From IMG/VR virus record IMGVR_UViG_3300012920_004308, positions 1 through 22,115 of that record: DNA of 22,115 nucleotides; one strand, written 5' to 3'. The notes beneath the pieces are model-generated. The model ran no database searches. It was not told the DNA's origin and saw only the letters and a program-made list of their open reading frames with translations. This stretch comes from a virus. Shown here in pieces: positions 3,917 to 22,062 of this stretch; position 1 is the first letter of the stretch; the number at the start of each line of letters is the position of its first letter. The translations under genes were made by a program, and so were the position numbers.

Positions 3917-4357
3917 ATGAGAGAGTTAGGAACGGTATTATTTGGATGCTTTGCATTTGTTTTATTTTTTTCAACGTTTATATATCCACAACTGGAATAT
4001 AAGAATGTGAAAAGTGTTAGTAGTTGTACAGGAGAATGTTATGAAGAATACGTTAAAAAACATGGTACAGTGGTTGAACAGCTTCAGGCCAAAAAAGAAG
4101 CAGCAATGGAAGATCCATTCAGCTCAATTCGAGGTTTATGGGCAGGATGCGCTGCGTGTCATGGGCAAGACGGCCAAGGAATAGGAGCATTTCCTAAACT
4201 TGCAGGACAAAGTTCTGATTATATATCAGAAAGATTATATGCATATAAAAATAGAGAAACGATAGGCAATATGTCTTCCACCATGTGGGCACAAGCTGGT
4301 ATGCTTAGTGACCAAGATATAAAAACATTATCAGAATTTATTGAAGTAGAACTATGA
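3917..4357 (+). CDS. Membrane-anchored class I cytochrome c
   Basis: Encodes 146 residues. A hydrophobic segment (about 6-23) should anchor the protein with the rest in the periplasm. Cys78-Ala-Ala-Cys81-His82 is a covalent haem c site, followed by G-Q-D-G-Q-G and FPKLAGQ, then Met119/Met123 (one a likely axial ligand) and LSDQDIKTLSEFI. This order resembles single-domain cytochromes of the c4/c5 type. An extra CTGEC pair (37, 41) lies between anchor and haem domain. The protein would carry electrons, and its maturation would depend on host cytochrome c assembly. It sits between nrdB and glutaredoxin and overlaps the next gene by four bases, so it is co-expressed with nucleotide reduction genes. 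The electron partner is unknown. Family assignment is confident; role is open. Confidence 0.9.
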   Translation: MRELGTVLFGCFAFVLFFSTFIYPQLEYKNVKSVSSCTGECYEEYVKKHGTVVEQLQAKKEAAMEDPFSSIRGLWAGCAACHGQDGQGIGAFPKLAGQSSDYISERLYAYKNRETIGNMSSTMWAQAGMLSDQDIKTLSEFIEVEL

Positions 4358-10899: not shown

Positions 10900-12173
10900 C
10901 TTTAATTTCATCAGGCACACTAGGTTTAAAAGACGCTGGAACTAATCCCACTAGTGGAGTAAAACTATCTACAACAATTACAGTTGGAGGTAGCGGTATT
11001 GATTGTTATCAAGTGTCAAGAAGACTTCAATATGAGCAAGGATTCTCATATTATCTTTATTCAGCAGATAAGATTATAGACGGAACAATGTATGGATATG
11101 GTAATCCTACTGACAGAACCATGAAAGATACGAATCCCGCATCTACTGTTCCTTTTGGAAATCTTGTAGGAATGAGTAATTCTGTTCATTCTGGATTACA
11201 AAGTAATTCTTATGCTCCTCAATATTATTCTACCTTCGGCCAAAAATTAGGTTGGGAACATGGCGTTGGAAATAGTACAGGAATAGGAAGCATAGGCGCA
11301 AATACATTTACTGATGATAACGGAAACAGCCAAACAATAAGAGATGTTCTCTGGTTAGAAAATACTGGTGTGACAGGAAACAGTGGAAATCTATTAGTGT
11401 TTTCACTTGATGGTGCACAACTTAATCATAATGATACGTTTATATCAATCACTATAAACGGGAATACTTTTACCCGATCTTCAGCAACACACGTTTTACA
11501 ATATAATAATGCTACATGGTATTGGAATCCATCTGATGCTCAATGTTCAAGTATGGGAACAAGTGGAAGTAAAAGCTTTAGTGTGAATGGAAATACTGTG
11601 TCACTTAATAATGGTATATGGGAAGAGATGGGACAAAACCCAGTAGATTCTAACCCAATTAATATTTCTAGTTATTATAAAGGTGGAAATCAACATAACA
11701 CACCAGGTATACCAACTTCTGGACAAATAAAATTTTCAGATTTTTTTGGTAAAACTTTTATAGGAAATGCCGCAGAGTTTACCTTTACAGGTGCCACACA
11801 CACGTACGGAAAGGTTGGAAGTATTCACGGGTATAATGAAAGTACAGGACCAACAGGATCTAACTTAAGTCCAACCAGTGATAGTGTTGCTGGTGCAACC
11901 TTGTCTCCTTACATTTTCAGTAGGAATGGACCAAGTGGAGCGTTTACTTGGTATAGTGATATTATTTCTGGAACTGTAGGTACTACTTCTTGGAGTAATC
12001 TTGCAATATCTAGATCTGGGTATACTACTTACAATTTTCCTAGATCTAGTGCAACAACAAATTACACCTCATCAGGTAAATATTATGTCGCTTGGACTGC
12101 TGCAGCTCACGGACATGGTTCTGGTTTAGCTAACATATTAGGTTCTGGAACAGTTACGGTTACGATATCATGA
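10896..12173 (+). CDS. Tail-fibre-like structural protein
   Basis: Encodes 425 residues, rich in Gly, Ser, Thr, Asn and aromatic residues, with almost no charged stretches, as expected of a beta-rich fibre or adhesin. The N-terminus (MTLISSGTLGLKDAG) and the central INISSYYKGG...IPTSGQIKFSDFFGK (about residues 250-290) are patterns seen in marine-phage virion proteins. The C-terminal third is Ser/Thr/Tyr-rich and likely the receptor-facing, variable part. It is coupled to the following ATP-grasp gene by ATGA overlap. Host-recognition role is inferred from composition and motif, not from a defined receptor-binding domain. Confidence 0.7.
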   Translation: MTLISSGTLGLKDAGTNPTSGVKLSTTITVGGSGIDCYQVSRRLQYEQGFSYYLYSADKIIDGTMYGYGNPTDRTMKDTNPASTVPFGNLVGMSNSVHSGLQSNSYAPQYYSTFGQKLGWEHGVGNSTGIGSIGANTFTDDNGNSQTIRDVLWLENTGVTGNSGNLLVFSLDGAQLNHNDTFISITINGNTFTRSSATHVLQYNNATWYWNPSDAQCSSMGTSGSKSFSVNGNTVSLNNGIWEEMGQNPVDSNPINISSYYKGGNQHNTPGIPTSGQIKFSDFFGKTFIGNAAEFTFTGATHTYGKVGSIHGYNESTGPTGSNLSPTSDSVAGATLSPYIFSRNGPSGAFTWYSDIISGTVGTTSWSNLAISRSGYTTYNFPRSSATTNYTSSGKYYVAWTAAAHGHGSGLANILGSGTVTVTIS

Positions 12174-13102
12174 AAATAATATTAATTGCAAGAAAGACCA
12201 CACTTGATTATTTAGTTCCTATGTTTGAAGAAGAAGGACATGAAGCTATTCTTATAACAGGTCATGAGAGAAGTACTAACCCTATCCAATTACTTGGAAC
12301 CGATGAAGATAAAGTATATGTTGAAAATTTTATTGGAATAATTAAACCTGATTACGTTGTAAATACTATACCAGGTTTATTAATTGAAAATAAAACAGGA
12401 TGTATTCTATTACAAAATACTGAAGCTTCATCTAATTTAGAATTAAATAAACAAGAAACAAAAGAATTAGCTACAACTAAAGGTTGGAAAGAAATACCTT
12501 ATCTGGAATGGGAAACAGATGAATTCCAAAAACATGATTATGTTCAATACATTAAACCTATTTCCGGACCTAGTGAAACACTTAAAATTCCAGCAAATAC
12601 AGATCCAATAGAATTTCTACATAGACTTGGAAATACCAAATATTTTATAGAAGGTGAATTAGATTACGATGTTGAAGCATGGTGTTTCTTTACTATATCC
12701 AATGGAAAATATTCTATTATAAGACACATTGGTGGAACAGGATGTGGGGAAAGTAAATTAGTTAATAATGACAAATATATTACAGATGCTATAGATGACT
12801 GGAGACAAGGTATTACTTTACACGATTTAACTGACGACCAAAAAGAATTATTTTTAGATAAATGTAAAGATTGGTTAGATCATATAGTAACGTTAGGCGG
12901 CAACTATGAAGGTTGTATAGGTGGTTATATTAAAGATGATGATGTATATTGGTCAGAACAAAACTCAAGACCGGGTATGCAGAATATAGGTATGCTCCCT
13001 GGAACGGCGATGAATTGGTTAGAGGGATTAGAATCAGATCCATCTAAATCAGTTAATCAAATATCAGCAAGTACAATTAGAAATGAAAAAGGATGGGGAT
13101 AG
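12170..13102 (+). CDS. PurD-like ATP-grasp ligase
   Basis: Encodes 310 residues with the layout of phosphoribosylamine-glycine ligase-like ATP-grasp enzymes: an N-terminal nucleotide-type fold (1-70, ending PDYVVNTIPGLL), a linker with NTEASSNLELNKQETKEL comparable to the pre-ATP-binding helix, Lys129 in YIKPISGPSET, the FIEGELDYDVEAWCFF segment (159-174) matching the family's adenine-binding region, and Glu263/Asn265/Arg267 in SEQNSRPGMQN for metal and phosphate binding. It is shorter than bacterial PurD (about 420-430), so it may ligate another substrate. It lies between a fibre gene and a SET-domain gene with overlaps on both sides, pointing to modification of a virion or host component rather than to purine synthesis. 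Confidence 0.8.
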   Translation: MKIILIARKTTLDYLVPMFEEEGHEAILITGHERSTNPIQLLGTDEDKVYVENFIGIIKPDYVVNTIPGLLIENKTGCILLQNTEASSNLELNKQETKELATTKGWKEIPYLEWETDEFQKHDYVQYIKPISGPSETLKIPANTDPIEFLHRLGNTKYFIEGELDYDVEAWCFFTISNGKYSIIRHIGGTGCGESKLVNNDKYITDAIDDWRQGITLHDLTDDQKELFLDKCKDWLDHIVTLGGNYEGCIGGYIKDDDVYWSEQNSRPGMQNIGMLPGTAMNWLEGLESDPSKSVNQISASTIRNEKGWG

Positions 13103-13416
13103 ACTTTACTGGTAAATGGCGACCACTCCCAAACAGCCTTACAATCAAAGAAAGCGATATTGATGGATTAGGTTTATTTGCTAAGGAAGATATTCCTGCA
13201 AATACAGAACTTGGTGTAATGAGAGTATGGCTAGTCGATGAATGGATCAGAACAGCATTAGGAAGTTTTTCTAATCATAGTGAAACACCTACATGTGAAA
13301 ATATAGAAAGAGTACACGCTAACGGGTATAAATACTATTGTCTAAAAACAATAAAAGACCTAAAAGTTGGTGATGAACTAACACTTAAATATCAAATGCC
13401 GGAATATCATAACTAA
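13093..13416 (+). CDS. Minimal SET-domain protein methyltransferase
   Basis: Encodes 107 residues covering the essential SET pieces: ESDIDGLGLFAKEDIPANTE (20-39), GSFSNHSETPTCEN (57-70) with the Asn-His of the cofactor-binding knot, and VGDELTLKY (92-100) with the catalytic-region Tyr100. SET proteins methylate lysines in proteins using S-adenosylmethionine. Size is at the lower limit, with no pre-SET zinc cluster. It overlaps the ATP-grasp gene by ten bases and abuts the lysozyme gene. Possible targets are a virion protein, a ribosomal protein or a nucleoid protein; the sequence does not tell. Confidence 0.85.
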   Translation: MGIDFTGKWRPLPNSLTIKESDIDGLGLFAKEDIPANTELGVMRVWLVDEWIRTALGSFSNHSETPTCENIERVHANGYKYYCLKTIKDLKVGDELTLKYQMPEYHN

Positions 13417-14169: not shown

Positions 14170-14598
14170 ATGGCATACTCAAAGCAGGTCGTCGATAGGT
14201 TTGAATCTGTATTAAATAACCCAGAGAAACATGCGGTTGGAAGATTCGATCCGAAAGACCCTATGGTTGCTACAGGAATGACAGGCGCTCCAGCCTGCGG
14301 CGATGTCATGAAACTTCAATTAAAATTAGATCTAGATGAAAGGATCGAAGATGTCAAATTTAAAACCTATGGATGCGGTTCTGCTATCGCGTCATCGACG
14401 ATGTTTGTTGAAATGCTTAAAGGTAAAACAATTACAGAAGCAAAACAAATTAAAGATAAAGACATTGCAGCAGCTCTTGAATTACCTCCAATCAAATTAC
14501 ATTGTTCAGTCTTAGCAGAGGACAGCATTAAGAAAGCCATAGAAAATTGGGAAGAAAAATCATCTCATAGAAGGCACAACTATGCTAGAACTAACTGA
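14170..14598 (+). CDS. iscU: Iron-sulfur cluster scaffold IscU-like protein
   Basis: Encodes 142 residues aligning along the whole IscU/NifU-N fold. The three cluster cysteines are Cys43 (APACGDVM), Cys69 (YGCGSAIASS) and Cys112 (KLHCSVLAED), with the regulatory Asp45 and His111 kept. LPPIK at 105-109 corresponds to the LPPVK chaperone-binding motif, so interaction with host HscA is plausible. No cysteine desulfurase is nearby; sulfur would have to come from host IscS or SufS. It is behind a late promoter and overlaps the IscA gene by 17 bases. Functionally complete by motif. Confidence 0.93.
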   Translation: MAYSKQVVDRFESVLNNPEKHAVGRFDPKDPMVATGMTGAPACGDVMKLQLKLDLDERIEDVKFKTYGCGSAIASSTMFVEMLKGKTITEAKQIKDKDIAAALELPPIKLHCSVLAEDSIKKAIENWEEKSSHRRHNYARTN

Positions 14599-14899
14599 CA
14601 ATGCTATTAAACAATTCTTAATTAAAACAGAAGAAAAGGGTAATGACACTATTCGTGTAGGTATAACCGGTGGAGGTTGTGCTGGATATGAATATGTTTT
14701 AGATTATGCTGATTCAGTACATGATGATGACCATGTATTAGACTTTGGTAAGTTTATTGTTGTTATAGACCCAACTTCTATACCTTATTTACAAGGTTCT
14801 ACACTCGATTACGTCACAGAGGGAATAAACTCCCAATTCAAATTTGCAAACCCAAACGTCCAAATGGCATGCGGATGTGGGGTTTCTATTCAATTCTAA
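14582..14899 (+). CDS. A-type iron-sulfur carrier (IscA/ErpA-like)
   Basis: Encodes 105 residues with the A-type carrier signature: GGGCAGYEY (Cys33) and the C-terminal ACGCGVS (Cys97, Cys99), the three cluster or iron ligands. Length is typical of IscA (about 107). It overlaps the IscU gene, so scaffold and carrier are made together late in infection, perhaps to mature a Fe-S protein of the virion or of host metabolism. Whether it is IscA, ErpA or SufA-like cannot be decided by eye. Confidence 0.93.
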   Translation: MLELTDNAIKQFLIKTEEKGNDTIRVGITGGGCAGYEYVLDYADSVHDDDHVLDFGKFIVVIDPTSIPYLQGSTLDYVTEGINSQFKFANPNVQMACGCGVSIQF

Positions 14900-14911: not shown

Positions 14912-14919
14912 TATAAATA
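14912..14919 (+). promoter_or_regulatory. T4-type late promoter for the curli/cyclase operon
   Basis: Exact TATAAATA in the 25-base gap after IscA. By T4 geometry (box at -13 to -6) transcription begins on the A of the ATG at 14925. It is the only clear promoter ahead of the chain of overlapping genes that runs to 21393. Confidence 0.8.
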
Positions 14920-14924
14920 GATGC

Positions 14925-15221
14925 ATGGAAGATATTTTTGGATTGATTGTGGATGTTGGTTTGCCTATTGCAGGTGCACTACTATCTGGCTTTTTTATAT
15001 TTTTAATAATAAAACAAATATTAGGTGGGGTTTTAGACCAAATTGATACTCTAAACATGTTTAGTAAAAGTCTAGAAAACAGAGTTAGGGCTATGAATAA
15101 TGATATGATTAAGATTGATATGTTAGTTTCATCGGCTTTAGAATTACGACCTGATATAGAGCGAGTAGCTCGCGCAGAAAATTTTGTTGAAGACGGCAAA
15201 TTAGATTCGAGGAGAGATTAA
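14925..15221 (+). CDS. Membrane protein with coiled coil, paralogue A
   Basis: Encodes 98 residues from the ATG on the predicted transcription start. A transmembrane helix (about 7-33, VDVGLPIAGALLSGFFIFLI) is followed by a helical, coiled-coil-prone region with RVRAMNNDMIKIDMLV. It aligns without gaps over about 67 residues to the next gene's product, so the pair arose by tandem duplication. The short N-terminus, single membrane span and position after lysozyme and before an outer-membrane channel would suit a holin-like or envelope-scaffold role; this is inference. Its stop overlaps the next start by one base. Confidence 0.7.
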   Translation: MEDIFGLIVDVGLPIAGALLSGFFIFLIIKQILGGVLDQIDTLNMFSKSLENRVRAMNNDMIKIDMLVSSALELRPDIERVARAENFVEDGKLDSRRD

Positions 15222-15496
15222 TGGAAGAGATTGCATTAAGTCAAGATCCTACAATCGTGACCCTAATTAATGATTATGGGTTTCCTGTGGTTGCTCTCGT
15301 TGGTCTAGGTTATTTTGTATATTATATTTGGACGTTTGTATCAGAAGAACTAGAACCTAAAATAGAAGAAATGCACTTCCAGTTAATAAGAGTAATCGAT
15401 CAGGTTCGAATGCTCGATAATGATCTAATCAGACTTCAACAAAAGGTTGATACTGTATTAGAATATAAAGAGAATGAGAGGAAAAAGAATGAATAA
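15221..15496 (+). CDS. Membrane protein with coiled coil, paralogue B
   Basis: Encodes 91 residues: an acidic N-terminus, a membrane helix (NDYGFPVVALVGLGYFVYYI, about 17-36), then a charged helix with QVRMLDNDLIRLQQKVDTVL. Shared with the preceding gene are the (V/Y)G(L/F)P turn, the Gly-x-Phe helix end and the VR..(N/D)ND(M/L)I segment. The GAGGAGAG before the ATG gives a strong ribosome-binding site. Small phage proteins of this shape include putative holins; a heteromeric pair with paralogue A is possible. Confidence 0.7.
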   Translation: MEEIALSQDPTIVTLINDYGFPVVALVGLGYFVYYIWTFVSEELEPKIEEMHFQLIRVIDQVRMLDNDLIRLQQKVDTVLEYKENERKKNE

Positions 15497-16046
15497 GAAT
15501 TTTCATATTAATTTTAGCCCAATATACTTTTTACTTGTTTTTTGTTTTTTAACATTTGTTGCAGAAACAAAGGCAGATGAATTAGTACACGAATTTAAGA
15601 ATCCATCGTTTTCTGGAATTGGTACTTCAGCCCATTATTTAACTGTGGAGAACCAGGAAAAATCCAGAAGAGACGCTATAAGAGATGATATCGAAGCAGC
15701 TTTAAAACAAGCTGAAAGAGATGCAGAAAATACTACATTAGCTAAATTTATTCGTAATTTAGAAAGTAGAATATATGCACAATTAAGTAAACAATTAGTT
15801 GAAAGTTTATTCCAAACATGTAGCGCAGAAGCTATAGCAGCTGGAACATGTACAGAAACAACATTTGGTAGTTTTGTTTTAGAAGGTAATACAATTACAT
15901 ATCAAAAAACACAATGTGATGCTTCACTATATGCTTGTACACAGGGAGATGATGTTATTATAATGACAATCTTAGCTGAAGATGGAACAGAAACAACAAT
16001 CGTAATACCAATCGGAGCTGGAACGGCCGGACAAGGAAATGGTTAA
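15489..16046 (+). CDS. csgF: CsgF-like curli assembly factor
   Basis: In curli systems CsgF docks in the outer-membrane CsgG channel and helps anchor the fibre. The start at 15489 follows AGAGGAA and gives 185 residues; a start at 15474 adds five. Residues 1-30 are a signal peptide ending near TKA-DE. The mature N-terminus VHEFKNPSFSGIG matches the CsgG-inserting segment of CsgF (in E. coli FQFRNPNFGG), then comes an Asn-Gln-rich stretch, a helical TTLAKFIRNLESRIYAQLSK, and a C-terminal beta part (FGSFVLEGNTITYQ, DVIIMTILAEDGTETTIVIP). It is longer than E. coli CsgF (138), with a helical insertion about residues 45-75 and four extra cysteines. It overlaps csgG by eight bases, supporting a functional pair. 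Confidence 0.85.
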   Translation: MNKNFHINFSPIYFLLVFCFLTFVAETKADELVHEFKNPSFSGIGTSAHYLTVENQEKSRRDAIRDDIEAALKQAERDAENTTLAKFIRNLESRIYAQLSKQLVESLFQTCSAEAIAAGTCTETTFGSFVLEGNTITYQKTQCDASLYACTQGDDVIIMTILAEDGTETTIVIPIGAGTAGQGNG

Positions 16047-16989
16047 GAAACTTACAACGCTTGGAGTATTAATATTCTTAATACAAGGATGTGCTTCAAT
16101 AGTTCCACCAAATGGATTAGACGCAAGAGATTGTGTTAAAGGATTTGCGTGTGTAGAAGGACCGGAAGTGGTTGTAATGCCTACACATGAAGAATTAAAG
16201 AATTTACCATCACCAGAAAAACCAGTTATTGTAGCTGTATACAAATACATGGATAAGACTGGACAAAGAAAACAGAAAGGTAATGTTGCAATGTTTAGTA
16301 CTGCCGTATCACAAGGTGGTGAAACAATGTTAATTGATGCGCTAAAAAGTGCAGGTGATGGAACATGGTTTAGAGTGGTAGAAAGAGTAGGATTAGATCA
16401 TCTTACTCGTGAACGTCAAATAGTTCGAACCACTAGAGAACAATATGGAGAAGAAGATGCTACAGGTCTTGCTCCATTATTGTTTGCAGGAATTATTCTC
16501 GAAGGCGGTATCATAGGATTTGATACTAACATAGAGACAGGAGGGGTGGGAGCTAGAACTTTCGGCATTGGATACTCACAACAATACCGAAGAGATATAG
16601 TTACTGTTTCCCTCCGAGCAGTGAGTACATTAACAGGAGAGATTCTGCTTAATGTCCAAACATCAAAAACTATCCTTTCATTAGCGGATGGCTATGATGT
16701 TTTTAAATTCGTTGATATGGACACCCAATTGATAGAGATTGAAGATGGGATGACAGAGAACGAATCAGTGACACGGTCGCTTCGCTCAACTATAGAAGCT
16801 GCAGTGTTAGAATTAATTTACCAGGGTGATGAACGAGGATATTGGGAAATTGATTGGCCAGTGAATAAAGTAATAGAAGACAAAGTCGAAGAAATTATGG
16901 ACGAAGCCGAAATTATTTACAGTGCACCGGTCGATGAACTACCAGAAGAGGTTCCCACCCCTGAAAATATAGAGGATATACGAGGATGA
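16039..16989 (+). CDS. csgG: CsgG-like curli secretion channel lipoprotein
   Basis: CsgG forms a nonameric outer-membrane channel that exports curlin subunits. The 316-residue product has a lipoprotein signal with lipobox LIQGC (Cys18) and the full CsgG core: LPSPEKPVIVAVYKYMDKTG (56-75), FSTAVSQGGETML (86-98), WFRVVERVGLDHLTRERQIV (110-129), ILEGGIIGFDTNIETGGVGA (153-172), FGIGYSQQYRRD and TGEILLNVQTSKTILS. Phe86 corresponds to the Phe56 of the E. coli constriction, while its neighbouring Tyr and Asn are not kept. Differences include a longer linker after the lipid Cys with two extra cysteines and an acidic C-terminal tail of about 45 residues. The E. coli protein is 277 residues. Its 3' end supplies the GAGG ribosome-binding site of the first curlin-like gene. 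Confidence 0.95.
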   Translation: MVKKLTTLGVLIFLIQGCASIVPPNGLDARDCVKGFACVEGPEVVVMPTHEELKNLPSPEKPVIVAVYKYMDKTGQRKQKGNVAMFSTAVSQGGETMLIDALKSAGDGTWFRVVERVGLDHLTRERQIVRTTREQYGEEDATGLAPLLFAGIILEGGIIGFDTNIETGGVGARTFGIGYSQQYRRDIVTVSLRAVSTLTGEILLNVQTSKTILSLADGYDVFKFVDMDTQLIEIEDGMTENESVTRSLRSTIEAAVLELIYQGDERGYWEIDWPVNKVIEDKVEEIMDEAEIIYSAPVDELPEEVPTPENIEDIRG

Positions 16990-17714
16990 AAATGTTTAAC
17001 AGATATATCGCATTTTTATTTTTATTATGCCCTGTGGTTTTGTATGCCGGAACAAATGATAACGAAATCAAGCTTGACCAATCTGGAGATACACTTAAAT
17101 TATACGTAGACCAAATAGGATACGGTAATAAGATTTGTGGAACTATCTCAAGTGGAGCTTGTGCTAGTGATTGGGTGTTAACCGGTAATACCGTAACAAT
17201 GGATATTGATATGATTGGTAACTTGAACCAAGTCTTCGGACCAACTCTCTTTGATAGTACTGATGTAGATTTAAAATTTACAGGTAATAGTAATATCTGG
17301 GATTGGAACGTAGGTTATGGTGGTAGTGCTGATAGCTCAGTATTAGATGTAGAAATTACTGGAAGTTCAAATACTTTCGATATAGACTGGGGTTATTCAG
17401 CTTCAGCAGAAAGATTGGATTTTGATTTAGATATAACAGGTGGTTCTAACGTTTGGAACATCGATATTGAAAACGATGACGCAACTTGGAACGTAGATGT
17501 TATAGGAAGTTCTAATAACTTTGTTACGTCAATGTCAGACGGTGCTTATAATTCCCTTACTATGGAATATATAGGTTCTAATGGAGACATTGATATAATA
17601 CAATCTTCCGGAACATGCCCAACAGGCGTAACTGGATGTTATGGTGTTATAAGTGCAGACTTTGATTCAGAAAATGCAGTCATTGACATTAAGCAAAAAG
17701 ATACTGGCGACTAG
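16986..17714 (+). CDS. Secreted curlin-like repeat protein 1
   Basis: Encodes 242 residues with a signal peptide ending near VLYA-GT. The mature part has imperfect repeats of about 20-30 residues, alternating hydrophobic/Asp strands with G-x-x-N turns: VDQIGYGNK, MDIDMIGNLNQ, DLKFTGNSNIW, DVEITGSSNTF, DLDITGGSNVW, NVDVIGSSNNF, ending IDIIQSSG and IDIKQK. This is the strand-turn pattern of curlins (CsgA/CsgB), but most of the stacking Gln residues are replaced by Asp or Thr. It is the likely export client of the adjacent CsgG and could form an amyloid-like beta-solenoid. It overlaps csgG by four bases and the FecR gene by 41. Confidence 0.75.
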   Translation: MKMFNRYIAFLFLLCPVVLYAGTNDNEIKLDQSGDTLKLYVDQIGYGNKICGTISSGACASDWVLTGNTVTMDIDMIGNLNQVFGPTLFDSTDVDLKFTGNSNIWDWNVGYGGSADSSVLDVEITGSSNTFDIDWGYSASAERLDFDLDITGGSNVWNIDIENDDATWNVDVIGSSNNFVTSMSDGAYNSLTMEYIGSNGDIDIIQSSGTCPTGVTGCYGVISADFDSENAVIDIKQKDTGD

Positions 17715-18825
17715 TTTACTAGTCTTTAGTTCTTTTACTTTTGCAAATGATATTGGCGATATAACAGAACACAAGGGCAGTGGTGGAATTACTCGCGAAG
17801 GTGAGAGTTTTACCACTGAACTTGGATTAGGTATTCAGCAAATGGATGCCATTGAAACGGTTAAAGGCCGTATGAAATTAACTTTTCTGGATGATACGGT
17901 ATTAAGATTAGTAGAACATACAGAAGTTGTACTAACTAAATATTATTTCGACCCAGATAATACTAAGAATAATTCCCTTGCTATGAATTTTGTAGCTGGA
18001 ACTGCAAGATTCGCAACAGGTGGAATAGGTTTAGTACCAAAAGAAAATATTGTTATTACAACTCCAACAGCAACGATTGGGGTTAGAGGAACAGATTTTA
18101 CGACTACTGTGGATGAATTGGGAAGGAGCTTAGTTATCCTTCTTCCAGAAACAGAATGTACAATAGATGGTGATTGTTCTCCATCTGGAATGATTACAGT
18201 AACTAATGAAGGAGGAACTGTAACATTAGAAGAAGCATACCAAGCAACAATGGTTTCTAGTTATGATAAAATTCCAACTGAACCAGTTGTATTGGAAAAT
18301 ATAAATTTAAATATGATAGACAATATGTTTATCGTGAGTCCACCTGATGAAATTGAAGAAAGAGAAAATGAGAGACGCGCTAGAACTGGGAGTACTAATA
18401 ATAATCTTCTGGATTTCACTGATCTCGATACAGACTACTTAGCAGAAGATTATTTAGCTGAGGACGATTTAGAGTTTAGCGAACTCGATATGGACTTGCT
18501 GGATGTAGATTTTCTACAAGACGTTTTGGTAACCATCGAAGAGGTTAATATATTAAAACGTAGTACCCAAGCCGCTGAACGTGGTGCAGGAGCAGCAAAC
18601 ATAACTGGAACAAATGTAGGATTTGATAAAGACACACAATATAATACTATAATAGATCAGGGTGCTGGACAAATTTGGTTCTATAGAGAAGTAAATGGAA
18701 TTATATCCGTAAGAATACCTATAGATAGTAATACAACATTGAGGAGCGAAAATGAAGGTAAAGAAAACCTTATTACTGTTGGCGATGGTCAGTCTATCGT
18801 TATCATCATACGTCAAGGCGGGTGA
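17674..18825 (+). CDS. Periplasmic FecR-domain protein
   Basis: From ATG 17674 (an upstream GTG at 17653 is possible) it encodes 383 residues with a signal peptide ending SFTFA-ND. The FecR domain spans about 54-145: GIQQMDAIETVKGRMKLTFL, TVLRLVEHTEVVLTKYYFDP, MNFVAGTARFATGG and the hallmark ITTPTATIGVRGTDF. After it come two cysteines (CTIDGDC), an acidic stretch with a tandem DYLAE repeat, and a C-terminal beta-rich part ending in IIIRQGG. In bacteria such secreted FecR proteins are often encoded beside CHASE2-domain cyclases and are thought to signal to them. No TonB receptor or ECF sigma factor is present. Its ends overlap both curlin-like genes, by 41 and 74 bases. Confidence 0.88.
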   Translation: MQSLTLSKKILATSLLVFSSFTFANDIGDITEHKGSGGITREGESFTTELGLGIQQMDAIETVKGRMKLTFLDDTVLRLVEHTEVVLTKYYFDPDNTKNNSLAMNFVAGTARFATGGIGLVPKENIVITTPTATIGVRGTDFTTTVDELGRSLVILLPETECTIDGDCSPSGMITVTNEGGTVTLEEAYQATMVSSYDKIPTEPVVLENINLNMIDNMFIVSPPDEIEERENERRARTGSTNNNLLDFTDLDTDYLAEDYLAEDDLEFSELDMDLLDVDFLQDVLVTIEEVNILKRSTQAAERGAGAANITGTNVGFDKDTQYNTIIDQGAGQIWFYREVNGIISVRIPIDSNTTLRSENEGKENLITVGDGQSIVIIIRQGG

Positions 18826-19564
18826 TGAACATAACCACGTAGATATAGACCAAGTTGGTTCTTCAGATAATTTTAATCTAGGAATCGAACAAGTTGGCTT
18901 TGAGAATCTAATTAGATTTTCTTTTAGTCATAGTGGTAATGAAGTAGATCTTTTACAATATGGAAATAAAAACTATATTGGTTTCACTGATGCGTGGGGT
19001 TCTGGTTATAGTTGGGGTGGAGACTTAGACGGATTAGATAATGAAATAGATATTCGTCAGAAATGTTCTGCAGCATCTTGTAATGATAATGACTTCCAAT
19101 TCCATATTTTAGGTGATGATAATGTTGTAAAGTTTGGTCAAGGATATAGTTTAAATGATAGTACAACCCCAACCTGGAATTATGACGGAAACGAACCAGG
19201 TGGAAACTTTGTAAGATTAGATATTCATGGCGATAATAATACATTTATTGGAAGTCAAAAAATGGATACAAGTACTGTATCACATTCCATTATTGCAAAT
19301 ATATACACAGACAATAACGATGTATATGTAAGACAAGCACAAAATGGAAATAAAAGTTTTACTATGACAATTAGAAACGCTGATGGTAATGATGTATATG
19401 TTAACCAAAGAGATAACGGTGCGCACACTGCAACTGTAAATTTATTAGGAACACAACCAACAGATCTTACCCTAATACAAAAAGGTGGAACAACACAATC
19501 ATATACATTATCTCAGAATTGTGTTACAGTTGGCGGATGTACAATTAGCGTTACACAAGAATGA
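18752..19564 (+). CDS. Secreted curlin-like repeat protein 2
   Basis: Encodes 270 residues with a signal peptide ending near VKA-GD. The ATG follows GAGGAG (18741-18746) and lies inside the FecR gene, so the signal peptide is coded in a second frame over FecR's C-terminus. Curlin-like units are clearer than in the first protein, with Gln kept: VDIDQVGSSDNFNLGIEQVG, EVDLLQYGNKN, NEIDIRQK, DVYVRQAQNGN, DVYVNQRDNGA, LTLIQKGG and a terminal ISVTQE. It could be the nucleator or major subunit of a fibre exported through CsgG. It overlaps the cyclase gene by four bases. Confidence 0.8.
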   Translation: MKVKKTLLLLAMVSLSLSSYVKAGDEHNHVDIDQVGSSDNFNLGIEQVGFENLIRFSFSHSGNEVDLLQYGNKNYIGFTDAWGSGYSWGGDLDGLDNEIDIRQKCSAASCNDNDFQFHILGDDNVVKFGQGYSLNDSTTPTWNYDGNEPGGNFVRLDIHGDNNTFIGSQKMDTSTVSHSIIANIYTDNNDVYVRQAQNGNKSFTMTIRNADGNDVYVNQRDNGAHTATVNLLGTQPTDLTLIQKGGTTQSYTLSQNCVTVGGCTISVTQE

Positions 19565-21393
19565 AATATATAACTTCCATCTGGGCGTGCTTAGCAGTAT
19601 TTACGTTATTGTTAGGTGTTAGAATAATAGATCCAGATCCCGTAGAAAGAATTAGATTAATCTCTTTCGATTCCAAAATAACATCTATTCCTGAAAAAGA
19701 ATCTGACCAAATAGTATTGGTTAACATAGGGGAAAAATCTTTAGAGAAGTATGGACAATGGCCATGGCCAAGACAATACTATGCACAAATGATTTCTGAT
19801 TTAAGAAATGCAAATGCTGGTATGATTGCATTCACAGTTATGTTTCCGGAACCAGATAGATTTGGTGGTGATGAAATATTTGCATCTTGGATAAAAGGTA
19901 ATGGAATAGTTTTATCACAAACCCCTTCCGCGCGAGGGCGAGCGGACGTGGCCCCGTACGTGGGCGTCGCGACCCTTGGTGAAGGTGACCCATATCAATT
20001 TGTATATGAATATCAAGGAATAGTAACTAACATACCTGAATACGTTCCTGAGGGAATGGGTATGATTAATTCTACAAAAGAAGTTGATAACTTAGTTAGG
20101 AGAATGCCTTTAATAACACAAGTTAATAATCAGTTATATCCATCTTTACCAATGGAGATAATTAGAACACTACAACAAAAGAAAAGTTATACAATAAAAG
20201 CAAATGAATTTGGAATTGTAGATCTTATGATTCCACCTTATGACCCAATTAAAACAGATATGTCTGGTTCAATATGGATTAATCCTACATACCGTTTTCA
20301 GGATATAGAATATGATGGTAGTCCGATTCCGAATCTTCAGGGAAAGACAGTTCTTGTTGGTGTGACAGCAGAGGGCATTCAGCCTCTTCTTTCAACTCCA
20401 ATGGGGGCGGAATATCCTCACCAAGTTCAAGCGTCTGCGCTTCAAACAATATTTTCTGGTGATTCAATATCTCGTCCTCAGTTGGCAAATCTGATGGAAA
20501 TAGTTCTAGTTGCTGTTCTTGGTTTGGGTGTGATTCTTTCTGTTTATTATCTTCCACTTCTATTATCCTTAGGCGCTTTTGGTGGTTTTGCTGGCGGCGC
20601 CGTGCTCGCATCGCATTTTGCATGGACCGATTCCTTCTTCTTAATCGATTGGACCTACTCATTAATAGTATGTATAATACTTTTTGCCCAATCATCATTT
20701 AACAACTTTTGGAAACAATTTAAACTAAGACAACAGATTAAGAAACAATTTGAAACTTATCTCGATCCACGTATGGTTGCTGAACTACAAAAAGATCCTA
20801 GTAAATTAAAACTTGGTGGTGAAAGAAAAGAAATGACAATGATGTTTATGGATATAATAGGATTTACCCCGATTAGTGAAGCTTATAAAGAGCAAGATGA
20901 TCCGGAAGGTCTTGTAGATCTTATAAATAATTATTTAGACACTATGACTAAAATCATACTTAAAAATGGTGGAACCATAGATAAGTATATGGGTGACTGC
21001 ATAATGGCATTCTGGAACGCTCCTTTAGATTGTCCAGATCATGCACAAAAAGCAGTAACTACATCAATGGAGATATTAAATGCAGGTAAAGGATTACAGC
21101 AAGAACTTGAAGATAAAGGCCTTCCTACTATTGGCGTTGGTATCGGTGTTAATACCGGGACAGTTATCGTCGGAAACATGGGATCAGAATCTCGATTTGA
21201 CTATTCCGTCATTGGAGATGCCGTTAATCTCGGGGCTAGACTCGAAGGACAAACAAGAAATTATGATGGGGTGGACTTGCTGCTATCGGAATTCACTTAT
21301 CGACAGTGTCAAGATGGAGTCTTCCATGAAGTCGACCGCATTCAAGTTAAAGGAAAGAAAGAAAAGGTTAAGGTTTTTACCTGTAAAGAATGA
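19561..21393 (+). CDS. CHASE2-domain class III adenylate/guanylate cyclase
   Basis: Encodes 610 residues. A membrane helix (about 5-23) leads to a periplasmic CHASE2 sensor (about 28-305), with the conserved SFDSKI, GQWPWPRQYYA and GKTVLVGVTA. Three helices follow (about 311-378), then a linker with QFETYLDPRMV and a class III cyclase domain (about 420-605). Catalytic residues look complete: metal Asp431 (FMDIIGFT) and Asp479 (DKYMGD), purine-contact Lys475, Ser549 (DYSVIGD) in the position usually Asp or Thr, and Asn556/Arg560 for transition-state binding. The Ser suggests a class IIIb type. It should make a cyclic nucleotide, probably cAMP, in response to an envelope signal, perhaps through the neighbouring FecR protein. 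An anomalous stretch of GC-ending codons lies at 19930-19975. Confidence 0.95.
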   Translation: MKYITSIWACLAVFTLLLGVRIIDPDPVERIRLISFDSKITSIPEKESDQIVLVNIGEKSLEKYGQWPWPRQYYAQMISDLRNANAGMIAFTVMFPEPDRFGGDEIFASWIKGNGIVLSQTPSARGRADVAPYVGVATLGEGDPYQFVYEYQGIVTNIPEYVPEGMGMINSTKEVDNLVRRMPLITQVNNQLYPSLPMEIIRTLQQKKSYTIKANEFGIVDLMIPPYDPIKTDMSGSIWINPTYRFQDIEYDGSPIPNLQGKTVLVGVTAEGIQPLLSTPMGAEYPHQVQASALQTIFSGDSISRPQLANLMEIVLVAVLGLGVILSVYYLPLLLSLGAFGGFAGGAVLASHFAWTDSFFLIDWTYSLIVCIILFAQSSFNNFWKQFKLRQQIKKQFETYLDPRMVAELQKDPSKLKLGGERKEMTMMFMDIIGFTPISEAYKEQDDPEGLVDLINNYLDTMTKIILKNGGTIDKYMGDCIMAFWNAPLDCPDHAQKAVTTSMEILNAGKGLQQELEDKGLPTIGVGIGVNTGTVIVGNMGSESRFDYSVIGDAVNLGARLEGQTRNYDGVDLLLSEFTYRQCQDGVFHEVDRIQVKGKKEKVKVFTCKE

Positions 21394-21713: not shown

Positions 21714-21772
21714 ACGATTCCGTGAAATATTTCAATTAGGGGGTTTACAACCCTTTCAAAATTCGGTATAAT
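21714..21772 (+). promoter_or_regulatory. Early-type promoter with conserved upstream block
   Basis: TTTACA (21744-21749), a 17-base spacer and TATAAT (21767-21772), with TCGG before the -10 box. Upstream, TCACG-ATTC-CGTGA (21714-21727) can form a small hairpin. The unit resembles the one at about 22003-22062. A normal leader with AAAAGGAG precedes the ATG at 21800. Confidence 0.85.
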
Positions 21773-22002: not shown

Positions 22003-22062
22003 GATTCGTCACGAAATTGTCACGAAAAAGGGGTTTACAAAAGGTCAAAAAATCGGTATAAT
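22003..22062 (+). promoter_or_regulatory. Early-type promoter, second copy of the unit
   Basis: TTTACA (22034-22039), a 17-base spacer and TATAAT (22057-22062). It shares GGGGTTTACAA, TCAAAA and ATCGG/TTCGGTATAAT with the promoter 290 bases upstream, and has two direct copies of TCACGAAA in its upstream part. It drives the gene cut by the window end. Confidence 0.85.

Follow-up and report, generated by a model that had tools for sequence, protein, structure and literature searches.

What would a phage gain by exporting curlin fibres, and why should the genes for this be joined to those of a cyclic-nucleotide sensor? The question is raised by IMG/VR virus record IMGVR_UViG_3300012920_004308, a virus contig of 22115 bases analysed over its whole length and referred to here as the window. 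A preliminary description, drawn up from the letters alone, had placed a phage-borne curli export operon with FecR and CHASE2 cyclase genes at 15489-21393, and such an operon in a T4-like marine phage is borne out. Pfam and profile evidence confirms CsgF, CsgG, two curlin-like proteins, a FecR-domain protein and a CHASE2 class III cyclase at those positions. The chain of overlapping genes also stands, but its start does not; the true start is 14925, as two small membrane proteins had been missed. The plus strand from 14925 to 21393 reads as one chain, upA-upB-csgF-csgG-Cur1-FecR-Cur2-CHASE2 cyclase, with every gene touching or overlapping the next. We lean, with some reserve, towards a late phage module that would export curlin fibres via CsgG-CsgF and is joined to a putative FecR-CHASE2 sensor relaying signals from the envelope to cyclic AMP (cAMP). 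The features, all on the plus strand, are as follows.

14912..14919, +, T4-type late promoter octamer TATAAATA, 5 nt before the upA ATG
14925..15221, +, upA, small membrane protein with one transmembrane segment and then a coiled coil (phrog_18771, phage-specific)
15221..15496, +, upB, tandem paralogue of upA (phrog_18771)
15489..16046, +, CsgF, pore-associated curli chaperone with a signal peptide and a conserved F-x-NP-x-F stretch (PF10614 1e-10; phrog_35372 1.2e-36)
16039..16989, +, CsgG, outer-membrane curli pore with a lipoprotein-type N-terminus (PF03783 5.3e-49)
16986..17714, +, Cur1, first curlin-like secreted repeat protein (Pfam curlin repeat 0.0058, below cut-off)
17674..18825, +, exported FecR-domain protein with a signal peptide, the FecR domain and a C-terminal strand ending I-x-I-x-Q (PF04773 3.1e-10; phrog_37870 3.1e-64)
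18752..19564, +, Cur2, second curlin-like secreted repeat protein (six N-x-hydrophobic-x-hydrophobic-x-Q repeats)
19561..21393, +, CHASE2 sensor with a class IIIb-type adenylate cyclase domain (PF05226 1.6e-40; PF00211 8.8e-20; phrog_35576 2.6e-190)

A rigid gene unit

Is the chain a unit or a chance assembly? Matches to CsgF, CsgG, FecR, CHASE2 and the class III cyclase all exceed the curated Pfam cut-offs against which they were judged, and PHROGs families already exist for upA/upB, CsgF, CsgG, FecR and the cyclase. Rigidity was counted in 80 CsgG-anchored viral loci, with only those having enough flank being scored. The upA/upB genes are present in 76/76 loci whose sequence reaches 2.5 kb or more upstream of the CsgG anchor; where it reaches 6.5 kb or more downstream, FecR is found in 38/38 and the cyclase in 37 of the 38. 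The curli-FecR-cyclase module is thus a rigid eight-gene unit. The ratio of nonsynonymous to synonymous substitution (dN/dS, window against its relative L192) is ~0.09-0.24 for each of the eight genes, a sign of purifying selection on all of them, and the chain is therefore not due to chance. In one viral locus (L228), additional genes lie between Cur2 and the cyclase, one of which carries a CxxCH haem-type motif.

The upA and upB products are transmembrane/coiled-coil proteins of 91-98 amino acids. In the published pelagiphage cluster, genes labelled 'HK' (histidine kinase) precede CsgF (PMC9599517), but no kinase domain was found in upA/upB in Pfam or NCBIfam, and the proteins are too short for a kinase. 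If the 'HK' genes correspond to upA/upB, a link drawn from position, the label is doubtful. As upA/upB are conserved in the cultured phages HTVC008M and Melnitz, it is the kinase label that is questioned and not membership in the module.

Predicted late expression

The preliminary description had a T4-type late promoter heading the operon. Counts of TATAAATA say little, as the window holds 6 where 4.6 are expected, no more than chance. Its position is more telling: the octamer precedes upA within 40 nt in 57/79 loci of the window's clade, at exactly 5 nt in 36 of them, and is absent before csgF, csgG, cur1 and fecR in that clade. The late promoter at the operon head is accepted on this fixed place across relatives and not on the count. 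Scans for sigma-70 promoters and terminators within the module gave no excess over shuffles.

In pelagimyophage-type phages, such octamers often stand just 5 nt ahead of the ATG. Among the octamer-gene pairs of HTVC008M (L187, L188, L191), 9/19 have a spacing of 5 between octamer and ATG, and the genes concerned include csgF, the tape measure, the tail-tube cap and the DNA end protector; the octamer-gene distance is never below 12 nt in T4 (49 kb examined) or in cyanophage Syn9 (50 kb). T4 late transcription begins ~6 nt after the octamer. With an octamer 5 nt before the ATG, leaderless late mRNAs are expected; that is, late transcripts of the module should begin at the start codon. Full-text literature searches found no description of leaderless late mRNA arising from a 5-nt octamer spacing.

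Predicted curlin export

Do the genes suffice for a secreted fibre? A profile of the phage CsgG proteins matches the E. coli CsgG structures over the full length (3.5e-103), and CsgG of the window's clade has in addition a C-terminal extension of ~40 amino acids. The curlin core motif, taken as N-x-[IVLAMT]-x-[IVLYFAT]-x-Q, occurs in six copies in Cur2 of the window. Its density is 10-16 per 1000 amino acids in the phage proteins that score best with the two phage curlin profiles, against 0.44 in other phage open reading frames. The phage Cur2 profile also picks up genes adjoining csgG in the majority of 37 curli loci of bacteria, and these findings together with the six repeats allow Cur2 to be counted as a predicted secreted curlin-repeat subunit. 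The case for Cur1 is weaker, and comes from the family level and a structure model, which is beta-rich and solenoid-like (predicted local distance difference test, pLDDT, 76.7); the model's matches in the PDB (SufB/SufD beta-helix, FapC, the CsgA fibril) are all weak, none being below 0.001.

Might the pore serve another purpose? One proposal is that CsgG-CsgF has been repurposed as a lysis or pinholin-like pore and sets the time of progeny release, with the fibre secondary. It was put forward for phage Melnitz on the basis of synteny and structure models (PMC9004378, the 2022 Melnitz study); late-promoter control is compatible with it, and the window has a lysozyme gene 1.5 kb upstream. The same study described Melnitz as being without csgA/B, a premise that finds no support in the Melnitz record itself, which annotates two curlin repeat proteins. 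The whole of CsgG aligns to the outer-membrane pore CsgG of E. coli, and two curlins, FecR and the cyclase are retained beside it in nearly all loci, although they would be superfluous for a pure lysis pore. A simple lysis role is disfavoured because of this retention, and we regard it as unlikely. A further suggestion is that the CsgG pore brings nutrients or cofactors into the infected cell (PMC7029224; PMC9599517). CsgE, the gate, was not seen in the scan of the window's proteins, which fits uptake, but CsgF, the two curlins and their conservation would be left unexplained, and the chances of this explanation appear slim.

The FecR protein and the cyclase

The FecR domain is the sole Pfam match in the window's FecR protein and stands directly behind the signal peptide; for this reason the protein is probably wholly periplasmic or secreted. 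No sigma-factor gene was seen in the window. By its sequence, the protein departs from the anti-sigma (FecI/FecA) layout of a cytoplasmic N-terminal regulator followed by a transmembrane segment, so that a domain appears to be shared but not a pathway. Of the role expected from bacteria, the domain stands, and that of an iron-type sigma regulator does not, the protein being wholly exported as predicted.

The tail of the protein is of interest. The ending I-x-I-x-Q is present in 68/68 FecR proteins of the window's clade, compared with 3/414 other open reading frames. In the HTVC008M-like clade, the tail has the full curlin core N-x-I-x-I-x-Q in 45/46 proteins, against 0/546, and in 2/46 after shuffling. 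The curlin-like tail is lacking in the bacterial FecR partners of CHASE2 cyclases. Phage FecR proteins thus seem to end in a curlin-like last strand, and we infer that the tail may contact curlin. A FecR-Cur1 profile match was left unused, as its best stretch lay outside the tail.

Six catalytic or core positions of the cyclase were read from an alignment of 123 viral sequences, since a strict motif search missed many true sites. D431, K475, D479, D553 and R560 are invariant (123/123) and N556 is present in 120/123. The window's cyclase has the two metal-binding Asp (D431, D479), the Lys base selector K475, the transition-state Asn N556 and the Arg R560, residues that mark it as a putative class III adenylate cyclase. 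Another cyclase-domain lineage stands behind the same CHASE2 part in several loci (L003, 8001-10052; L096, 9983-12028; L219; L265), and the transition-state Asn is replaced by Ser in the cyclases of Melnitz, L219 and L265. This suggests an exchange of domains and perhaps a lower activity.

Could cAMP be the main product, with the cyclase rewiring host physiology and the curli part merely supplying the signal that is sensed? The invariant catalytic residues agree with this, as does the pairing of FecR with CHASE2-cyclase in bacteria that have no curli. In Sinorhizobium meliloti, CHASE2 cyclases drive a cAMP regulon (PMC5498481; PMC13001267), and the targets of Clr there include a FecR-domain protein (PMC5498481). 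A single deregulated cyclase would suffice, yet eight genes are carried, and we consider this role for cAMP rather unlikely.

Composite origin

How did the module originate? The 37 bacterial curli loci were drawn from sets of alpha-, gamma- and wider Pseudomonadota and of Bacteroidia, a limited sample examined with profiles of imperfect sensitivity for distant FecR. CsgG is present in all 37 and FecR in 1 (a marginal match), and neither the cyclase nor upA/upB was found in any. Among 289 alphaproteobacterial genomes, CsgF (PF10614) exceeds the cut-off in 3 and CHASE2 in 138. FecR lies immediately upstream of a CHASE2-cyclase in curli-free bacterial loci (L089, L091, L092, L097, L102, L103) and again in three (L170, L171, L172) of 20 sampled alphaproteobacterial CHASE2 loci, and would therefore represent a ready-made sensor pair. 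As curli and FecR-cyclase are separate in bacteria, the phage unit can be viewed as two bacterial modules joined, with two phage-specific genes added. The whole module had been inferred to be acquired from an Alphaproteobacterium (PMC9599517); no donor with the complete gene set was present among the sampled bacterial loci, a limited sample.

Possible function

How might the parts work together? On the reading that we lean towards, the late promoter would fire and the module be expressed late in infection. Curlins would leave the infected cell via CsgG-CsgF, the pore in its outer membrane, and then polymerise. The periplasmic FecR protein, with its curlin-like tail strand, would report the state of the fibre or of secretion to CHASE2, and cyclase activity would raise host cAMP. 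The likely benefit would lie in coating the infected cell with fibres, so as to block competitors or to hold host cells and progeny together. The purposes put forward in the preliminary description, namely coating, a block to superinfection, opening of the outer membrane or a rise in cAMP, are likewise conjectural. The sensor step has a precedent, as S. meliloti CHASE2 cyclases raise cAMP when a protein is sensed by way of NsrA, an outer-membrane protein (PMC13001267). Among the loci seen, only those of phages combine FecR and CHASE2-cyclase with curli, which suggests sensing of fibre export and not an iron regulator. Did the phage rewire a bacterial FecR/CHASE2-cyclase pair to sense its own amyloid, with the FecR tail contacting or capping curlin and so giving rise to a late cAMP signal? 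The FecR-curlin-cyclase coupling was found in no bacterial operon examined; this more specific idea is offered tentatively.

Several observations weigh against fibre export coupled to a sensor. Taken on their own, the curlins of the window fall under the Pfam cut-off (E 0.0058 and 0.095). CsgE and CsgC, along with CsgD, were not seen among the scanned proteins of the window, and pelagiphages are reported to be without all three (PMC9599517). The strict curlin motif is found at the FecR C-terminus in 0/71 proteins of the window's clade, the window's own included. An hhalign comparison of the FecR tail with Cur2 is weak and merely suggestive (P 0.0035, probability 3.8%). The structure model of FecR is of low confidence (pLDDT 47), and a Foldseek search with it gave no meaningful match. 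Infected Melnitz cells showed no clumping (PMC9004378).

If fibre export holds, phages would make hosts that reportedly have no curli display amyloid, and views of marine infection, aggregation and gene exchange would change; the module is widespread across ocean virus collections. The eight-gene limits and the predicted leaderless late promoter show experimenters which stretch to clone and when to look.

Genomic setting

Is the window truly phage DNA? Curli, FecR and CHASE2 are bacterial families, and bacterial DNA mis-binned as virus might look much the same. However, the module occurs in complete cultured phage genomes (HTVC008M, Melnitz), and its gene combination is missing from the bacterial curli loci. 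Phage genes flank it in the window. In agreement with what the preliminary description had said of T4-type and lysis genes, they comprise nrdAB, an RNase H-type exonuclease, DUF6433 and a lysozyme, together with a second exonuclease and a GIY-YIG nuclease; all are T4-type or common phage genes. The closest relatives by CsgG identity (L192, 88%; L194, 83%) both have the eight-gene unit, and L194, a 130 kb contig, carries the T4 capsid protein Gp23. Gp23 is present in 9/16 sampled records, including contigs of 250 and 340 kb, and the relatives that bear it span 44-340 kb. Four records with bacterial titles (L085, L086, L088, L096; Flavobacteriaceae, Pirellulales, Rhodobacteraceae) hold the phage module, and each resembles a phage contig placed in a bacterial bin. 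Bacterial contamination as the source was considered and rejected, and mis-binning has only a minute probability. A 1499-base 'Salmonella phage' clone (L084, OR851715) was set aside, as it resembles a bacterial csgG contaminant.

Three loci (L222, L227, L228) have the curli-FecR-cyclase module on viral contigs of 217-340 kb, with Gp23 on those of 250 and 340 kb. Other genes and sites of the window may be recorded here. A cytochrome c gene (3917-4357; PF00034 2e-10) with a signal-like N-terminus lies directly 3' of nrdB. Iron-sulphur assembly genes, NifU/IscU-like and IscA-like, occupy 14170-14899 immediately 5' of the module, as they do in L192. At 13093-13416 and 12170-13102, a SET-domain protein adjoins an unassigned protein of 310 amino acids and a 425 amino acid protein that has no PHROG or Pfam match. 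Two near-identical strong sigma-70-type promoter-like sites are found 3' of the module, one (21744-21772) preceding a short open reading frame and the other (22034-22062) near the contig end.

Comparison with known systems

The gene set of the window is confirmed but largely known already. A curli cluster was reported in pelagic phages in 2020 (PMC7029224), and in 2022 the order HK-CsgF-CsgG-CsgA/B-FecR-CsgA/B-AC (AC, adenylate cyclase) was described in pelagiphages of Myoviridae and Podoviridae types, with ocean spread and expression covered (PMC9599517). The preliminary description's mention of curli genes in pelagic T4-like phages thus proves correct, as these two papers, PMC9004378, HTVC008M and Melnitz show; its suggestion that the coupling to a sensor-cyclase was the less described part does not hold, as PMC9599517 already gives FecR and adenylate cyclase in the cluster. 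What is new here is evidence of a composite origin from pieces that are separate in bacteria, the predicted leaderless late promoter and clearer limits of the module.

The same order is found in two cultured phages. Pelagibacter phage HTVC008M, a complete genome, has all eight genes at gp011-gp019 in the window's order; CsgG is 44% and the cyclase 45% identical, but csgF has its own late promoter and Cur2 has a longer counterpart. Methylophilales phage Melnitz, also complete, has the eight-gene order at gp97-gp104, but differs in its cyclase-domain lineage with Ser for the transition-state Asn. The published pelagiphage type VIII secretion system module, known from marine phages including T4-like ones, shares the order from CsgF to adenylate cyclase and has 'HK' where the window has upA/upB. 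Relative to it, the window is a divergent new member (~45% identical to HTVC008M). Bacterial curli (type VIII secretion) operons share CsgF, CsgG and curlins with the window but differ in having no cyclase or upA/upB, and FecR only in the single marginal case. Bacterial FecR and CHASE2-adenylate cyclase pairs also have the FecR-domain gene upstream of the cyclase, there directly; they differ from the phage unit in that no curli genes are nearby, no curlin gene intervenes and FecR has no curlin-like tail.

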